Shown piece after piece: positions 1,989 to 42,598 of a stretch of 45,990 nucleotides of DNA (within the stretch, counting starts at the first letter, position 1; every line of letters starts with the position of its first letter). The position numbers and the translations under genes were made by a program. The DNA lies in assembly GCA_025355955.1 (NCBI GenBank), contig JANXYP010000106.1:1-45990 (forward strand). The letters are read 5' to 3'. Below the pieces are notes generated by a model. It was not told the DNA's origin. It searched no databases and was given only the letters and a program-made list of their open reading frames with translations. Origin of the DNA: Chloroflexota bacterium. GTDB taxonomy: Bacteria > Chloroflexota > Chloroflexia > QHBQ01.

Positions 1989-2017
1989 TTGACACTTAGC
2001 CGCCCCTCTGGTATCAT
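1989..2017 (+). promoter_or_regulatory. sigma70 promoter of the 2058-5545 operon
   Basis: TTGACA (1989-1994), a 17-bp spacer and TATCAT (2012-2017) sit 40 bp before the ATG at 2058. It is divergent from the SDR promoter, with 28 bp between the two -35 boxes, so one regulator could control both. Confidence 0.82.
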
Positions 2018-2057: not shown

Positions 2058-2816
2058 ATGCTGACAAATCGCACAGCCGTGAAACGCCACTACATAGTAA
2101 TCGGTGGTGGCTGCTATGGGCTGGTGCATACCAATGCCCTGTTGCGTGGGCGACGCAAAGGCTACGTGGACTTCGACACCATCAGCGTCGTTGATCGCCA
2201 CGCCAGCACTTGCCGAGTGCGACGCGAGTTGGGCGACGACCCAGCGCTGCGCTTCGTCGAGGCCGACTGGTTTACCTATATGCAGGCAGCACTGGATGGC
2301 ATGGGCGACGATGATGAAATCGTGCCTGCGCCGCTGGCCCCGCACCTGGCCTTCGAGTGGGTGATGTGGAGCGTGGCGCGTGAGCTGGACGGGCAGCGGA
2401 TCAGCATCGAGCCGTTCGACTACAAGCTGGGGTTGCCCTACGAGGTGCAGGGCAAGGAAGGCACCGGCTTTATCAGTTGGGCCGATTTCGTCTGCGTGCC
2501 GAACTGCCGCGCCCCCAAGATCTGCCCCGCCATCCTCAAGCCCCGCTTCTGGGAGATGAGCGAAACAGTCGAGCAGTTCGCCGCCCAGCAGGCGGCAGCG
2601 GGCCAACCCTTCGCCGCCGTCGAGATCTTCAAGTGTTACTTCTGCGCCCCTGGCGTGGAGGCCATCCCGGTTAGCCGCTATAAAGCGGCCCGCGACCATA
2701 TCGCAGCGGCTGCATCTGACGGTGAGATTCGCGCCCTGATCGCCACCGTCTCCGCCTGCCACGGCGCGGTCAACCTTATCCGTACCAGCAGTCCACAGCT
2801 AGCGAACGTCACATGA
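2058..2816 (+). CDS. Cys-rich protein with Rossmann-like N-terminus, function unknown
   Basis: The 252-aa protein begins with a beta strand and a dinucleotide-binding-like loop (HYIVIGGGCYG, residues 11-21), followed by VVD46 at the end of a second strand, as in FAD/NAD(P)-binding proteins. Cysteines cluster in CxxxCx5C (146, 150, 156) and CxxC (193-196), with another at 234, suggesting a metal or Fe-S site. I do not recognise a named family. The start follows TTGAGGTAACGA, giving GAGGT as Shine-Dalgarno. Its last codons overlap the next gene by 4 bp (ATGA at 2813-2816), so the two are translationally coupled, and the product may serve the large pseudokinase protein downstream. Confidence 0.7.
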   Translation: MLTNRTAVKRHYIVIGGGCYGLVHTNALLRGRRKGYVDFDTISVVDRHASTCRVRRELGDDPALRFVEADWFTYMQAALDGMGDDDEIVPAPLAPHLAFEWVMWSVARELDGQRISIEPFDYKLGLPYEVQGKEGTGFISWADFVCVPNCRAPKICPAILKPRFWEMSETVEQFAAQQAAAGQPFAAVEIFKCYFCAPGVEAIPVSRYKAARDHIAAAASDGEIRALIATVSACHGAVNLIRTSSPQLANVT

Positions 2817-5545
2817 ATCAGCTGAACCAGGCAGTCGAGCAACTACAGATTGGCGGCTATCAGGTGTTCAGCCGCGCCGGGTCGGATTACTCTGGCTCAT
2901 CGTTCCTTGCCCGTGACACGGGCAAGAACGAGGTGGTGCGTATTCGCCTCTACCGCCCCGAATATCGCAACGACCCCATTTTCGCAGCCAACTTCCGCAA
3001 GGATGTACCCCGCGCCCGCAAGCCCGGCAACGACGGCTACATGGCCCAGCCGCTGGCCTCCGGCTATGCCCAGCGTATCTACCCCTACGTCATCTTCAAC
3101 CAGCTAAACGGCAAGACCTGGGCGGACCTGCTGGCGGTGCGCGACCTGAATAGCATCGACATGATCGAGCTGTGCGCCACTGCGGTACGCGCCCTCGCCG
3201 CCGCGCACAGCAGTGGGCTGGTAGTCGGCGAACTGACCCCCCAGAAGTTGGTAGTGACGCGCAGCAGCAGTGGCGACGAGGTGCGGCTGGCCGAACCCGC
3301 GCTCGGTCGCCCCCGCTTGCTCGACCTCAAGCGGCCCACTGACGAAAACAAACTGGGCATCGGCAGTAGCGTGATGTCGGAGTACAGCGCTCCCGAACTG
3401 GCAACGTTGGGCAGCGAACCGACTCCCGCCAGCGATGTCTACGCCATGGGTGCGCTGCTGTGGGAGATGTTCACCGGGATGCGCTTCCGCGATGCCTGGG
3501 TCAATGCTCCTAAAGCAGCGAACGGCAAGAGCGCCAATGGCAGCGCTGCCACCGCGAATGGCAAAGCGGAAGCCCCGGTCCGCGCCCTCAAGCTGCCCCA
3601 TAATATGCCGCCCGCACTCAGCGCCTTCCTGCAACGCGCCCTCGCGCTCGACCCTGGCAAGCGTTTCGCCGACGGCAACGCGATGTACGATGAGTTGGCC
3701 GCGATGCAGACCCGTGATCGCAATCAGAAAGCCCACAATGCCCCGTTCACCCTCAGCACCAAAGGCGAGTCCGCTACCTGGGCGCAGCAGACTGGCGGTA
3801 GGCGGCGCGGGCGCTGGCTCGGTTTCGGCCTCATTCTCGCCGCGCTGCTCGTCCTCGCCATCTTCTACGGCAACGACGCGCTCGGCTACATCGGCGGGCT
3901 GTTCCCCCCCGCTAGACCCACGGCGGTCGCCAGCGCTCACGCCACGCCGGGTGGCGGCGCGGTGGTGGTTGGCGAAATATTGCCCACTTACACGCCTGCA
4001 CCGCCAACCCCAACTACTGTCGCTCCCACCGCGACCCATGCGACCGCTGCTACCCCCACCCTGCCCGCAGCAACCCCCACCCCTGCTGCGCCCATCGTCG
4101 TAACCGCCACCGATGGGGTAGCCGCGCAGTACGACCTGCACCTCGCCCTCGACCTCACCTCACTGACTATCCCGGTGCAGCAGGTAGTTAGCTACACCAA
4201 CCAGCAGACTGCCACTATCACCACCCTGGTTTTCCGTATCGTTCCCCACCACTTCGAGGGCAGCTTCACCCTCGATCAACTGACCATTAATGGCCTGCCA
4301 GCGGCATACACCTGGCGCGATGATGTGAACCTCAGCGTGCCACTGACCGGCACCGGCCAGACCCCGCTAGCCCCAGCTGCGTCTACGGTGATCGCTATGC
4401 AGTACACCCTCCGCCCCCTCACCGCAGGTAATCGCTTTGCGATTGATGCCGCCAACCGTATCATCACCCTGGGAGACTGGCTGCCCACGCTGGCGCCATA
4501 TCAGCAAGGCCAACCGATGACGTACCCCTACGCCCGCGTTGGTGACAACGGCATCGGCGTGCCTGCCGACTATAGCGTGCAGGTGCATACCGTGCAGCCG
4601 CTGCTGATCGCCGCTAGCGGCCAGCAGGTGACGCACAGCGGCAACAACTGGAGCTTCCGTGTAAGCGTAGGACGCGACTTCGCGCTGACCGCCTCTGATC
4701 AGTTCGTCGACCCCAGCGCCGACAAATCGTTGACCCGCACCGCCAGGGACGGCACGATTATATACGGCTACTTCCTACCCGAACACCGCGCCCGTGCCAC
4801 CGCCATCCTCGACCTTAGCCTGGCTGCCTACGACTGGTATGCGGCCCGACTCGGCCCTCGTTACGCCAGCCGCTTCAGCGTGGCGGAGATGGCTGATAGC
4901 CTGCTGCCCGTCACGCCTGGCGCAACTGTCCCCACCCCTACTGGGGTAGCCAGTGACCTGAGCATCGCCTCCGACCAGGAATATCCCGATCTCTACCTGT
5001 TGCGTGCTGGCAGCGTGCGTGACGAGGACATCAGCGCAGGCGGCTTCCTGTGGTGGCGCGCCTTGCACGGCGCGGTCTACCAGTGGCTCTACGCCGATGT
5101 GATCACCAACCAGTACAGCGACCCCTGGCTTGACGAGGCTACTGGCGATTATGCTACACTATACCTGATTGGCGATCTCTACCCCGCCAGCTTCAACAAG
5201 GCGTGGAACGACTGGGGCAACTACGTGCCGCCACCAGCGGCCAATCCCAACGCGCACACCCCACCAACGGTCGCCAGCTACAAGCCGCTCGGCGCAGCGG
5301 TCAGCGCCTTCATCGGGCGCGACGATTACTTCAACTTCATCTACCGCCAGGGCGCGACCTTCTACCGCACCGTGCGTATTGCGTTTGGTAACGACAACAC
5401 CTTCTGGCAGGCGTTGACCGCCTACCACAAGCAGTTCACCGGAAAGCTGGTCAGCGGGCGCGATTTGCTCGCTGTGTTGCAGTCCGCATCGCCCGCCGAT
5501 CTTCAGCCGCTGTTCCAGCAATACGTGGGCTATGGAAGCAAATAA
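2813..5545 (+). CDS. pseudokinase - TM - pseudo-M1-peptidase fusion protein
   Basis: The 910-aa protein has three parts. Residues about 12-300 follow a Ser/Thr kinase fold: SAPE (192-195) and SDVYAMGALLWEMFTG (207-222) match the APE and helix-F regions. However, the catalytic HRDxKxxN is LVVGELTPQK (136-145), DFG is lost near 160, and the VAIK Lys is absent, so it should be a pseudokinase. A TM helix at 335-352 follows RRRGR, then a Pro/Thr linker (365-430). Residues 435-910 resemble an M1 aminopeptidase. EYP (723-725) matches the GxMEYP region and WLDEATGDY (772-780) matches the third-ligand Glu segment, but HExxH has become HGAVY (752-756), so zinc catalysis is unlikely. The topology places the kinase-like part in the cytoplasm and the peptidase-like part outside. 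Coupled to the 2058 gene. Confidence 0.78.
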   Translation: MNQLNQAVEQLQIGGYQVFSRAGSDYSGSSFLARDTGKNEVVRIRLYRPEYRNDPIFAANFRKDVPRARKPGNDGYMAQPLASGYAQRIYPYVIFNQLNGKTWADLLAVRDLNSIDMIELCATAVRALAAAHSSGLVVGELTPQKLVVTRSSSGDEVRLAEPALGRPRLLDLKRPTDENKLGIGSSVMSEYSAPELATLGSEPTPASDVYAMGALLWEMFTGMRFRDAWVNAPKAANGKSANGSAATANGKAEAPVRALKLPHNMPPALSAFLQRALALDPGKRFADGNAMYDELAAMQTRDRNQKAHNAPFTLSTKGESATWAQQTGGRRRGRWLGFGLILAALLVLAIFYGNDALGYIGGLFPPARPTAVASAHATPGGGAVVVGEILPTYTPAPPTPTTVAPTATHATAATPTLPAATPTPAAPIVVTATDGVAAQYDLHLALDLTSLTIPVQQVVSYTNQQTATITTLVFRIVPHHFEGSFTLDQLTINGLPAAYTWRDDVNLSVPLTGTGQTPLAPAASTVIAMQYTLRPLTAGNRFAIDAANRIITLGDWLPTLAPYQQGQPMTYPYARVGDNGIGVPADYSVQVHTVQPLLIAASGQQVTHSGNNWSFRVSVGRDFALTASDQFVDPSADKSLTRTARDGTIIYGYFLPEHRARATAILDLSLAAYDWYAARLGPRYASRFSVAEMADSLLPVTPGATVPTPTGVASDLSIASDQEYPDLYLLRAGSVRDEDISAGGFLWWRALHGAVYQWLYADVITNQYSDPWLDEATGDYATLYLIGDLYPASFNKAWNDWGNYVPPPAANPNAHTPPTVASYKPLGAAVSAFIGRDDYFNFIYRQGATFYRTVRIAFGNDNTFWQALTAYHKQFTGKLVSGRDLLAVLQSASPADLQPLFQQYVGYGSK

Positions 5546-5594
5546 TTCAGGACTGAGGACTGAGTGGGCTTCCCACTAGCGATTGGAAGTCACG
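5546..5594 (+). repeat. short heptamer repeat between genes
   Basis: AGGACTG occurs twice in tandem followed by a third partial copy. It is one of several period-7 tandem repeats found between genes in this window (6274, 7895, 15336, 36914). Confidence 0.5.
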
Positions 5595-6269
5595 ATGTTG
5601 AAAGCGCAGTATCTGCTTATCACCATAGGTATCTGCCTGCTCGTCGGCCTGGGCTGGCTGGGCTTGCGCCTGGTGGGGAGCGGCAAGCCAGACATGGTGG
5701 TGACACTGCCTGCACCTGCGGCGAATGTGGCCCCAGCTACCGCCCCGCCTACTGCTACCCCGCCGCCCGCGCCGGGCTACAATTTGCCGCCAATGGTTGC
5801 GCCCACCGCGATGCCGTCCACCTTGCCCGCTGTGGTCAATATAGCGGTGAACGACATCGCGCCGCCGCCTTTCATCCCCACCGTAAACGAACACTGGGCC
5901 GAGGCCGATTTGACCAAAGCCGAAGTCCGACTCTACCAGGGTCAGGCATCACAGGCGGTTTTCCAGATCAGCTATGGCCGCGGTGATACCGCTAATACCA
6001 CCACCTACGCGGGTCTGTTCACCGTATACGTCAAGGATGCCAGCCTGCACCAGTCGGTAGTCAGGGGAGAGTACATCCGCTACTGGGTGGGATTCGACCC
6101 GAAGTGGGCGAATGGCTTCCACAGCGTGATCATGGATAGCAGCGGCAGGGTGATCGATGCGCGCCTCGGCCAGCCCATCTCCTCGGGCTGTATCCGCACC
6201 ACCGTGTCCGACGCAGCCGCCATCTTCGCCTGGCTGCGAGTAGGGGCGCAGGTGTGGGTACACTACTGA
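5595..6269 (+). CDS. L,D-transpeptidase (YkuD) with N-terminal anchor
   Basis: This is predicted to form 3-3 peptidoglycan cross-links or attach proteins to the wall outside the membrane. The C-terminal half carries the YkuD signature: His176 (GFHSVIM), then SSGCIRT with the catalytic Cys199 (224-aa numbering). A signal-anchor helix (residues 6-27) and a Pro/Ala/Thr linker (39-95) precede it. I chose ATG 5595, with GGAAG six bases upstream, over an in-frame TTG at 5583 that adds four residues. The Cys and His spacing is that of active enzymes. The gene follows the pseudopeptidase operon by 49 bp, and an envelope role for both is likely. Confidence 0.9.
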   Translation: MLKAQYLLITIGICLLVGLGWLGLRLVGSGKPDMVVTLPAPAANVAPATAPPTATPPPAPGYNLPPMVAPTAMPSTLPAVVNIAVNDIAPPPFIPTVNEHWAEADLTKAEVRLYQGQASQAVFQISYGRGDTANTTTYAGLFTVYVKDASLHQSVVRGEYIRYWVGFDPKWANGFHSVIMDSSGRVIDARLGQPISSGCIRTTVSDAAAIFAWLRVGAQVWVHY

Positions 6270-6303
6270 GAATTACAGATTGCCGATTGCCGATTGCAGA
6301 TTG
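6270..6303 (+). repeat. heptamer tandem repeat (ATTGCCG-type)
   Basis: ATTGCCG, ATTGCCG, ATTGCAG, ATTGCGG: four consecutive period-7 units between the transpeptidase stop and the next gene. Confidence 0.6.
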
Positions 6304-6335
6304 CGGGTGGCGCTCCCCGCTGCTTAAAGGAGATG

Positions 6336-6743
6336 ATGGATAACCCCGCCCCGTTTCGTTTTACCCCCGCGTTCGTCGGCTTCGTGCTGGCGGCGGCGTT
6401 GCTGGTGGCCTTGTGCAGCGTGATGGTCAGTCAGACCACGAGCGACACCACGGTTAGTGGGCATCGGGTGGTGCAGCTCGATTACGGCCTGCCGTTTGGC
6501 TTCACCGCGGCGACGACTAGCGATACTACACCTTTCAACGTATTCGCCTATTCCAGCCAGGCAGCCAACCCCGCTCATTGGCGACCACTCGGCTACCTGG
6601 GCGATGCACTGCTCTGGTTCGCCATCATTGCGCTCATCGTCGGGGGTCGCCGCCTCATTCTAAGCGCTGGCACATTCGTCGGGCTGGTGGTGACGGCGGT
6701 CATCTTCCTGGCGTTGATGAACCTGATCTTTACGTTTGGGTAA
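6336..6743 (+). CDS. small membrane protein, function unknown
   Basis: The 135-aa protein has predicted TM helices at about 12-32, 88-104 and 112-133. An extracytoplasmic loop of about 55 residues rich in Thr and Ser lies between the first two. AAAGGAG at 6326-6332 is too close to the ATG at 6333, so the adjacent ATG at 6336 is the more likely start. No family is recognised. It lies 66 bp after the L,D-transpeptidase gene in the same direction and may be co-transcribed with it. Confidence 0.65.
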   Translation: MDNPAPFRFTPAFVGFVLAAALLVALCSVMVSQTTSDTTVSGHRVVQLDYGLPFGFTAATTSDTTPFNVFAYSSQAANPAHWRPLGYLGDALLWFAIIALIVGGRRLILSAGTFVGLVVTAVIFLALMNLIFTFG

Positions 6744-34958: not shown

Positions 34959-36803
34959 ATGGCAATCAGGAAAAGCGGCGAACGGATTGGCGACTACGAG
35001 CTGATCAGCGAACTGGGGCGGGGGGGGATGTCGGACGTGTATCGCGTCTACAACCACCGCAAAGCCCGCAGCGAGGCGCTGAAGGTGCTGCGTCTGCAAG
35101 TGGCTAGTAGCGAGGATGCGGGCCGCTTCCAGCGCGAGATCGCGATCAGCTCGAAGTTGACTCACCCCAACATCGTCGCGGTCTACGACGCGGGGGTGAT
35201 GAAGGAAGAAGGGGTTTACTTCATTGCGATGGAGGCAATGGAGGGAACGCTGCGCGACTACCTCAAGGCGCAGAAGAGTGGCTACCTCAAGCTGGAAGAG
35301 GCGGCGACGATTATGGCCGCCCTGGCTGCCGCGCTAGATTACGCCCACAAGCAGAAGGTTATCCACCGCGATATCAAGCCGGAGAACGTGCTGTATCAGA
35401 CTGATGCCAACCGTGAGCGACGCTGGTGCCTGGCCGATTTCGGCATTGCCCGCGCCGCCGACGATGCCCACTTTACCCGTGTCGGTGAGGCGGTTGGCAC
35501 CGTCACTTACATGGCCCCCGAGCGGCTGGGCGGCGATGTGACTGCCCCTGGCCCCGCCTCCGACCAGTATGCGCTGGGCGTGGTGCTGTATGAGATGCTA
35601 ACCGGCGCGCCCCCGTTTACCGGAGCGCCGGAAGACATCATGCGGGCACAACTGGAAACCCGCCCCGACCCCCCATCCAAGCGCAACACCCATCTGCCCC
35701 GCGAGGCCGACGATATTGTGCTGCGGATGCTGGCGAAGCGGCCCCGCGACCGCTACCCCTCGGCCAGCGCCGCTGCTGCTGACTTGCAGGCCGCCGCGGG
35801 AATGCTACCCGACGACGCTCTGCGTAAGATGTACGCCCGCGCCACCGCCCTTGCCAGCGACTCTGACCCCGCCAGCCCTGCTATCGCCCGTGTACTAATC
35901 GAGACGGTAATCGAGGCAGCGCCCAACTTCCGTGACCGCCAGAAGGTAATGCAGCGTATCGAGGAGCGTGAACGCAACGCGCCCGTCTTGTCCCACGACG
36001 CGCCGACCAAAAAGACCACGCCACCTAAAGCCGCGCCCCTGATTGGCGATCGCAATAACTGGCCCGGCCATCTATTTCCCACCCGCAAGGCCGAGCTTGG
36101 CCGCGAGATAACATTGGTGGCAGGATCAAGCGCGGACGGCACGATGTTCGGCACGCGGGTACGGGTAGCCCAGGGCGCGACCTTGCGCGGTCACGTCTAT
36201 AGCACTGGCGACATAATTCTGGAAGAGGGCGCGACCGTGACTGGCACGGCGATTGCGCGGGGCAAGCTGGAGATTGGCCCCAACTGCCGCGCCCGCAGCG
36301 TGTTCGCCAGCAGCATTAGCGTGGGGCAGAACAGCCAGGTGCGCCGTTGGACGGTGAGCGAGGGGGAGATGGCGGTTGCAGCCGACGCTCAGGTGGGTGG
36401 GGCGCACGCACTTGGCCCAATCAGCATCGAGCGCGGTGGTCAGGTGATGTCGCCCAGCGTGGTCAGCGCCCACGATAGTGTCATCATCGCGCCGCAGGTG
36501 AAGGTAGGCGAGTTGCCGGTTAGCGACGAGAACAGCTTCGCGCTCGACCGTAGCGGTCAACTGCGCGCCAGGGTAGCTACTACTGCGCCATCATCTGCGC
36601 CCCGCACTGGCACCATCGTCACCAGCCTGCTCAACCATCGCTTGCTACAGGCGATCCTCGCTGCCAAGTCAATCCTCGGCGCAAATGCTGGCCCAGTCGC
36701 GCACACAATGCTCGACGAACCCCGCGCCAGCACTGGCCCGTTGCCCGCCGAAGATACCACCGACGCACCAGCAGACCAGCCAACGGATCAGCTAACCGAT
36801 TAG
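34959..36803 (+). CDS. Ser/Thr protein kinase with bactofilin-like C-terminal solenoid
   Basis: The 614-aa cytosolic Hanks-type kinase is complete: glycine loop GRGGMSDVY (20-28), Lys42 (ALKVLR), Glu60 (QREIAI), HRDIKPEN (136-143), DFG (160-162), APE (186-188) and SDQYALGVVLYEM (201-213). No TM helix or PASTA domain follows. Residues about 265-335 are helical (dimerisation?), and 393-515 form a beta-solenoid of short strands (GTRVRVAQGATLRGHVYS, GDIILEEGATVTGTAI, GKLEIGPNCRARSV), the bactofilin (polymer-forming) pattern. The C-terminal tail is acidic. ATG at 34959. It precedes the coiled-coil membrane protein gene by 140 bp, and a shared pathway is plausible. Confidence 0.85.
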   Translation: MAIRKSGERIGDYELISELGRGGMSDVYRVYNHRKARSEALKVLRLQVASSEDAGRFQREIAISSKLTHPNIVAVYDAGVMKEEGVYFIAMEAMEGTLRDYLKAQKSGYLKLEEAATIMAALAAALDYAHKQKVIHRDIKPENVLYQTDANRERRWCLADFGIARAADDAHFTRVGEAVGTVTYMAPERLGGDVTAPGPASDQYALGVVLYEMLTGAPPFTGAPEDIMRAQLETRPDPPSKRNTHLPREADDIVLRMLAKRPRDRYPSASAAAADLQAAAGMLPDDALRKMYARATALASDSDPASPAIARVLIETVIEAAPNFRDRQKVMQRIEERERNAPVLSHDAPTKKTTPPKAAPLIGDRNNWPGHLFPTRKAELGREITLVAGSSADGTMFGTRVRVAQGATLRGHVYSTGDIILEEGATVTGTAIARGKLEIGPNCRARSVFASSISVGQNSQVRRWTVSEGEMAVAADAQVGGAHALGPISIERGGQVMSPSVVSAHDSVIIAPQVKVGELPVSDENSFALDRSGQLRARVATTAPSSAPRTGTIVTSLLNHRLLQAILAAKSILGANAGPVAHTMLDEPRASTGPLPAEDTTDAPADQPTDQLTD

Positions 36804-40896: not shown

Positions 40897-40999
40897 GCCA
40901 CACACATTGCGATTTGATGAATAGCACCCACCAACATCTAGGTCAAATAGTCTGAGGCGCAGTTGGGTCTCCAGGCTGAAGCAAGTGCTGTGCCAGCTA

Positions 41000-41008
41000 T
41001 GGTATAAT
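41000..41008 (+). promoter_or_regulatory. extended -10 promoter of gltX
   Basis: TGG-TATAAT (41000-41008) with no good -35; about 30 nt before the Shine-Dalgarno AAAGGAG (41027-41033). Confidence 0.65.
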
Positions 41009-41044
41009 ACCGCGCACATAAGCAGCAAAGGAGAGCATGATAAG

Positions 41045-42598
41045 ATGAGCAACGATCGAGCCGATATTAGCGGGCCAGTACGGGTTCGCTTCGCCCCCAG
41101 CCCGACTGGTTTCCTGCACGTCGGTGGAGTGCGTACCGCGATGTTTAGCTGGCTGGCCGCCCGCCACTACGGCGGTCAGTTCATCCTGCGGATCGAGGAC
41201 ACCGACCAGAAGCGCTATGTCGAGGGCGCAGAGGACGACTTGAAGGCTAGCCTGCGCTGGGTGGGCATTACGTGGGATGAGGGGCCGGATGTGGGCGGCC
41301 CACACGCGCCATATCGTCAGTCGGAGCGGCTGCCGCTCTATCAGCAATACGCCCACCAGCTAGTAGAGATGGGCTGCGCCTACAAGAGTTGGAGCAGCGC
41401 TGAGGAGCTTGACGTAGAGCGCAAGGCTGCCGCCGCCAATCACCAACCGCCGCCGCTGCACGATCGCTGGCGCAATGCCGCACCGGAGCAGATCGCCGCC
41501 GCCGAAGCTGAGGGCAAACCCTATACCATCCGCCTGAAGATGCCGGAAGAGGGCAGCACTGGCTTCTACGATTTCGTCAAGAATCAAACCATCACCTTTG
41601 AGAACGCCAGGGTGGACGACACCGTGCTGCTCAAGTCGGACGGCTACCCAACCTACCATCTTGCGGTGGTGGTCGACGACCATGAGATGGGCATAACCCA
41701 CGTGCTACGCGCCGAGGAGTGGGTTGCCAGCACCCCCAAGCACGTGCAGTTGTATAAGTGTTTCGGCTGGGAGATGCCGGTCTTTGTCCATGTTCCCGAT
41801 ATACTGCGTCCTGACGGACGGGGCAAACTGAGCAAGCGCGACGGCGATGTTATGACCAATTAGTTTTGGGAGCAGGGTTATCTGCCGGAGGCGATGTTCA
41901 ACTTTCTGGTGCTGCAGGGCTGGAGCTACGATGAGAAGACCGAGCTTATGACCCAGGCGGAGATTGTCGAGCGCTATACCTTCACTCGCATCCAGCCCTC
42001 ACCCGCCCGCTGGGACATCAACAAGCTGAACTGGATGAACGGCCACTACATCAATCATATTCTCACCCTGGATGATCTGGCCCGCCGCTCCCTAACCTTC
42101 ATGCATCAGGCCGGGTTGCTCACCGAGGTGGAGGCGCTGCCGGGCGACGACGAGTATCTCTACTTCCAGGCGATCATTGCACTGCTCAAGGATCGCATCA
42201 AGGTGCTGTCCGAGGTTCCCGACCTAACTGGCTATTTCTTCGCCGACCACCTGAAATATGACCCTGCGTTGCTGCTGGGCAAGGACAAGAATGCGATCAG
42301 CGTAGCGCAGGCTAGCGAGATTATCCACTCGGCAACCATGCTGCTGCAGGCCGACAAGTACGCCGCCTGGCACCTGAGCGACAAGGAGAACGGCCCGGAG
42401 GCGGAGGTGAAAGCGCTGGCCGAGCAGATGGCGTTGAAGCCTGGCCCGGTGTTCATGCCGCTGCGCGTGGCAATCACGGGCCGCACCCAATCACCCAGCT
42501 TGTTCGAGACCATGGAGGTACTGGGTCGAGAGCGGGTGATGGTAAGGCTGCGCGATGCCACGCAACTGCTGGATGCAATGGGCGCACAAGATGAATAG
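41045..42598 (+). pseudogene. gltX: glutamyl-tRNA synthetase interrupted by an in-frame amber codon
   Basis: The two open parts (41045-41863 and 41864-42598) are in the same frame and together make a 517-codon class I synthetase. The HIGH-like motif FAPSPTGFLHVGG (16-28), IEDTDQKR, KLSKR (261-265) and the C-terminal anticodon-binding helical bundle (WDINKLNWMNGHYINHIL etc.) are all intact. A single TAG at 41861-41863 falls eight codons after the KLSKR motif, between DVMTN and FWEQGYLPEAM. CAG to TAG would be the simplest change (Gln). Only sequencing error, a recent mutation, a second copy elsewhere, or read-through explains a broken essential gene. Start at 41045 with AAAGGAG 11 bases upstream; a three-codon ATG-ATA-AGA-TGA frame overlaps it. 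Confidence 0.85.
41861..41863 (+). other. in-frame TAG codon in gltX (codon 273)
   Basis: Sole stop in the 517-codon frame. The surrounding codons show normal coding and no frame change. Several other genes in the window end in TAG (for example at 979, 8454, 16609, 34589, 36803, 39958), which argues against general reassignment. Confidence 0.9.

Follow-up and report, generated by a model that had tools for sequence, protein, structure and literature searches.

Analysis of a 45,990-nt stretch of DNA from a Chloroflexota bacterium (GCA_025355955.1, contig JANXYP010000106.1, positions 1 to 45,990, forward strand; hereafter the window) points to a gene whose product may be a bitopic double-pseudoenzyme receptor or scaffold, with a degenerate PknA/PknB-like kinase inside the cell and a disabled two-domain M1 peptidase outside. 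From the sequence and the predicted folds we put the probability of this reading at roughly 0.45. The gene (2813..5545) starts with ATG and encodes a 910-AA protein composed of a Hanks-type kinase domain (residues 1-310), one transmembrane (TM) helix (residues 335-353), a Pro/Thr-rich linker and an M1 domain (residues 439-907), and all its parts described below lie on the + strand. The preliminary description of this DNA had proposed a double pseudoenzyme in one fused protein; sequence and predicted folds agree with that proposal, and the bitopic topology is likewise supported.

The kinase half (2813..3742) was recognized by homology and predicted fold. It matched the NCBIfam PknB_PASTA model (4.6e-15, far under that model's cut-off), Pfam Pkinase (1.6e-5, under cut-off) and, in the PDB, PknA (1e-10). 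Structure prediction of both enzymatic parts had been suggested as a check, and AF2 was run on the kinase and M1 halves separately, as a combined alignment had placed kinase rows on the M1 half. Although the alignment for the kinase half held only 11 rows, its model reached a pLDDT of 80 and a pTM of 0.81, and Foldseek returned PknA/PknB as the top matches with E about 1e-17 (PknA, 1.5e-17). A kinase fold was thus found for residues 1-310.

When the window protein was aligned with 14 comparator kinases, drawn from its class and its own genome, the loss of its catalytic elements became apparent. The counterpart of VAIK is VRIR (2936..2947; Lys45 to Arg), with Lys present in 14/14 comparators; the αC residue Glu64 is replaced by Asp, and no glycine loop remains. 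In place of HRDxKPxN stands VGELTPQK(L) (residues 138-146, 3224..3250), with HRD changed to VGE, Lys142 to Thr and Asn145 to Lys, where HRD and N are invariant in the comparators, and the DFG counterpart is EPA (residues 161-163, 3293..3301). The APE motif (3389..3397), the helix-F Asp208 (3434..3436), a fold-defining Gly and the C-lobe Arg284 are kept. The alignment therefore bears out the earlier claim that HRD, DFG and VAIK are gone and that APE and the helix-F Asp remain. With respect to the features of an active Hanks-type (PknB-like) kinase, the fold is present and the VAIK Lys, HRD Asp and DFG Asp are absent; judged by sequence and model, this predicted cytosolic half is a pseudokinase in the sense of a kinase fold without one or more catalytic motifs.

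Other kinase-like proteins with altered motifs were seen in the genome. One, a second degenerate kinase (L219; G000:C89, 193-2232, + strand), is a 680-AA frame with a kinase-like part fused to a PP2C phosphatase (PF13672, 6e-17); HRD is replaced by SAA and DFG by DLS, and no relationship between it and the window kinase was detectable. Another (L215; G000:C58, 1447-2679, + strand) is a membrane kinase-like protein that has HGN at the HRD position but retains DFG and the VAIK Lys. The window itself encodes a Hanks kinase (34959-36803) with canonical HRD and DFG, whose C-terminal half looks by eye like a polymer-forming/bactofilin-like repeat and gave no Pfam match.

The kinase half is followed by a TM helix (3815..3871) marked by a hydropathy maximum of 2.29, with GGRRRGR just before it, and then by the Pro/Thr-rich linker (3872..4126), assigned from sequence. 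Because of the positive-inside charge and the secreted location of the M1 relatives, we infer that the linker and the M1 half are outside and the kinase half is in the cytosol.

The M1 half (4127..5533) matched Pfam PF01433 above its cut-off (1.6e-7; 31.6 bits vs. 27.7). Its AF2 model gave a pLDDT of 90 and a pTM of 0.90, and in Foldseek it matched ERAP1/2 and the Deinococcus two-domain M1 enzyme with E values of 1e-20 to 1e-22, so that an M1 fold was found here too. The GAMEN counterpart QEYP (4976..4987) keeps Glu723 and WLDE (5126..5137) keeps Glu775, the third zinc ligand, both Glu residues being invariant in the M1 alignment; Tyr844 (5342..5344), which from its position we take to be the catalytic Tyr of M1, is kept and nearly invariant. 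HExxH is replaced by HGAVY (5066..5080), in which the first His (H752) is kept, the general base Glu753 is changed to Gly and the zinc ligand His756 to Tyr. The spacing is thus HGAVY-x18-E in place of HExxH-x18-E, and no HExxH was found elsewhere in the 2813-5545 ORF. The preliminary description had reported HGAVY with retained EYP and WLDE landmarks, and the M1 alignment upholds this. Of the attributes of an active M1 enzyme, the fold with a Pfam score above cut-off is present, as are, by alignment, the GAMEN Glu and the catalytic Tyr, and HExxH-x18-E is absent. Compared with 47 relatives, the window protein keeps 31/40 conserved M1 columns, the same number as in the most divergent of the intact relatives compared; E753 and H756, which it has lost, are fully conserved in all 47.

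A survey of relatives with and without catalytic residues, as had been proposed, turned up 150 other M1 rows, after removal of near-duplicates, with H-E-H, the only exceptions being the window gene and one further locus (L198); the rows from GTDB contigs are biased toward HExxH, which was included in 1/3 peptide patterns used, and the class-genome and phylum-genome search sets are free of that bias. The further locus encodes a 632-AA unfused M1 protein of another genome (G370), with RETAR for HExxH, WIAE, and Asn replacing Tyr. Its catalytic loss is independent of that in the window gene and shows that such loss occurred more than once in this M1 subfamily. This gene (L198/L203, 1000-2886, - strand) has a TM segment at its C-terminus and adjoins an EPSP-synthase-like gene, named by eye.

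The closest relative of the window M1 half is encoded in the same genome, on another contig (L002; G000:C213). This 739-AA protein with HEVAH, a hydrophobic N-terminus and no kinase domain is an intact paralogue of the secreted type. A maximum-likelihood tree built from 46 M1 domains pairs the two as sisters with support of 100/97, and their end branches are equal (1.11 for the window M1 half and 1.12 for L002), which makes this an old M1 duplication in a lineage without compared relatives below class level. As the disabled copy evolves no faster than the intact one, its fold still looks constrained, which argues against free decay of the ectodomain and suggests a binding role. M1 genes also occur as tandem pairs in several genomes of family f19 (e.g., G207:C41, G215:C11).

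The strongest competing explanation, which we nevertheless regard as somewhat unlikely, is that only the extracellular M1 half works, in adhesion or peptide binding, and that what is left of the kinase half is a membrane anchor in decay, without any function itself. The equal rates of the M1 sisters fit it, as do the data for the kinase half: 49 of its 84 conserved kinase columns are lost vs. 0 to 10 in the comparators (leave-one-out count), and its end branch in the kinase tree is 3.97 vs. a median of 0.42, so long that the tree cannot place the window kinase. This extreme branch is a point against the receptor or scaffold reading, as it also fits loss of function in the kinase half. Yet the frame of the kinase half is intact with normal codon bias, and the fold-defining APE, Asp208, Gly and Arg284 are all kept.

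A second explanation, that the gene was recently inactivated and is heading to loss, draws on the rarity of the fusion. Neither the 158 genomes searched in the class nor the 400 searched in the phylum contained a kinase-M1 fusion (a second phylum search sampled largely the same genomes and adds little), and none was seen among the best 80 M1 loci that an alignment-based scan of GTDB contigs gave; a single-protein scan of GTDB contigs gave no relative, and the long M1 ORFs (e.g., L024/L042/L076/L130, L077-L080, L082, L150) contained no kinase part. The protein is therefore a singleton from one draft genome, with no orthologue found in the class, phylum and GTDB-contig searches. Recent inactivation is nonetheless improbable: the ORF runs for 910 codons without an internal stop, coding bias is confined to this frame and present in its kinase, linker and M1 segments, the M1 model reaches a pLDDT of 90, and outside the catalytic positions most residues conserved in the family are kept.

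It is hardly probable, too, that the protein is still an enzyme, either an M1 peptidase using another metal or reaction or a kinase half working by non-canonical chemistry like the SidJ-type polyglutamylases. Retention of E723, H752, E775 and Y844 would suit such activity, some of the catalytic substitutions in the kinase are conservative (K to R, D to E, D to E), and bacterial pseudokinase polyglutamylation has been reported, according to the title of a work that PMC11266112 cites. However, the M1 general base and zinc His are both gone, and in the kinase other residues stand at the positions of the Lys, the HRD Asp, the Asn and the DFG Asp, and the glycine loop is missing. Finally, the joining of two genes by an assembly or binning artefact is very unlikely, even though the genome is a draft in 420 contigs with a completeness of 84% and a contamination of 3.5%, since codon bias and GC3 (0.76-0.79, like neighboring genes) are the same in both halves and mark one frame across the kinase, linker and M1 parts; moreover, the kinases of relatives align through into the TM/linker part, and the sister gene of the M1 half lies elsewhere in the bin, on a different contig.

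The genes flanking the double pseudoenzyme are on the + strand as well. The upstream gene (2058..2816) encodes a Cys-containing 252-AA protein of no Pfam family, overlaps the start at 2813 by ATGA, and is preceded by a sigma-70-like promoter (1989..2017; TTGACA-17-TATCAT, 11/12, extended -10), identified by consensus match only. Downstream, an L,D-transpeptidase gene (YkuD; 5583..6269; PF03734, 1.3e-10) lies 37 bp past the stop at 5545; no + strand terminator pattern was found in between, and this gene is likely on the same transcript. A conserved operon of gene 2058 and the L,D-transpeptidase was considered and dropped, as the two homologues of gene 2058 whose surroundings were examined (L066, L067) occur in another context. 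These adjoin XdhC/MobA-like and LON-like genes, not kinases or M1 genes, and the conserved association with gene 2058 raised in the preliminary description did not hold. Members of the gene 2058 family are 240-300 AA long, with a GGGxxG start and a conserved CPxxCRxPxxCPA-like motif; because of the XdhC/MobA-like and LON-like neighbors in the two relatives (names by eye), the family is possibly linked to molybdoenzymes. No conserved gene neighborhood linking the double pseudoenzyme to a pathway was found. Elsewhere in the window, sequence inspection showed a glutamyl-tRNA synthetase-like gene apparently split into two ORFs (40985-41863 and 41894-42598); a frameshift or a stop, whether real or introduced by the assembly, would account for the split.

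Among known systems, the PASTA-type receptor kinases (PknB) are closest to the kinase half in fold and sequence and have the same kinase-TM-ectodomain layout, but PknB is catalytic and its ectodomain is of the PASTA type. EssB/YukC of T7SSb resembles the window protein in having a pseudokinase on the cytosolic side, its motifs degraded, together with one TM helix and an extracellular domain (PMC9600267); its ectodomain, however, is all-helical and unlike known folds, whereas that of the window protein has the M1 fold, and it is encoded in the T7SSb operon, whereas none of the genes next to the double pseudoenzyme at 2058-6743 belongs to T7SS. MviN of Mycobacterium (ActPs3 family) likewise resides in the membrane and carries a PknB-like pseudokinase domain (PMC12599244, PMC3601408), which recruits FhaA (PMC3601408), but it is a peptidoglycan-synthesis protein without a described M1 domain. 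The two-domain secreted M1 peptidases of Chloroflexota, and L002, have the M1 fold and QEYP/WLDE in common with the window protein but retain HExxH and lack a kinase domain. Yeast Tma108, an M1 homologue, is thought to bind peptide N-termini without cutting and binds nascent chains via its substrate pocket (PMC11266112); it is eukaryotic, ribosome-associated and keeps HExxHx18E, whereas the window M1 half lacks the base and one zinc ligand.

The general layout of a bitopic pseudokinase is thus known from EssB/YukC and MviN, and the M1 ectodomain on it is new. Pseudokinases are known from bacterial membranes, but few studies have dealt with them. A 2025 review of bacterial pseudokinase families (ActPs1-3, GLW, CP1, DYD, DLHK), described with family-specific motifs and indels, nowhere mentions a peptidase (PMC12599244), and in a review of pseudometallopeptidases the sole M1 case is Tma108 (PMC11266112); bacterial M1 pseudopeptidases appear undescribed in the searched literature. 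With no second fusion found in the class, phylum and GTDB-contig searches, this supports the earlier remark that the combination is not a described family.

For the receptor or scaffold reading, we propose that an M1 gene was duplicated within the lineage and that one copy remained an intact secreted peptidase, while the other would have been joined to a kinase-TM module, its general base and one of its zinc ligands disappearing. The sister relationship to L002 is observed in the tree; the order of duplication, fusion and loss is our reconstruction. The M1 cleft should not cut but may bind an extracellular peptide or cell-wall protein, perhaps by the peptide N-terminus, given the Tma108 precedent and the retained E723, the Glu that in M1 enzymes holds this end of the peptide. 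Ligand binding might then alter clustering across the TM helix, and an active Hanks kinase (e.g., the PASTA kinase of this genome) and/or an FHA protein could dock on the pseudokinase. Docking inside is suggested by the MviN and EssB precedents and by the many apparently active kinases in the genome, where 14 kinase matches pass the Pfam cut-off (canonical motifs are present in most of them, PASTA domains in one), and by nine FHA matches. That the fused protein carries an outside ligand signal inward, as first suggested, is plausible. The more specific version, a receptor built of two dead enzymes in which the M1 pseudopeptidase senses peptide N-termini and the cytosolic pseudokinase regulates kinases or phospho-binding proteins, is tentative and rather doubtful.

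As a protein of a single genome it would be moderately worthwhile to follow up if orthologues appear. If the more specific reading is true, the architecture of the receptor would be new and, judging by the papers searched, the protein would be the first bacterial M1 pseudopeptidase sensor. With its intact sister peptidase in the same genome, the protein offers a clean case for asking whether a peptidase cleft can become a peptide sensor.
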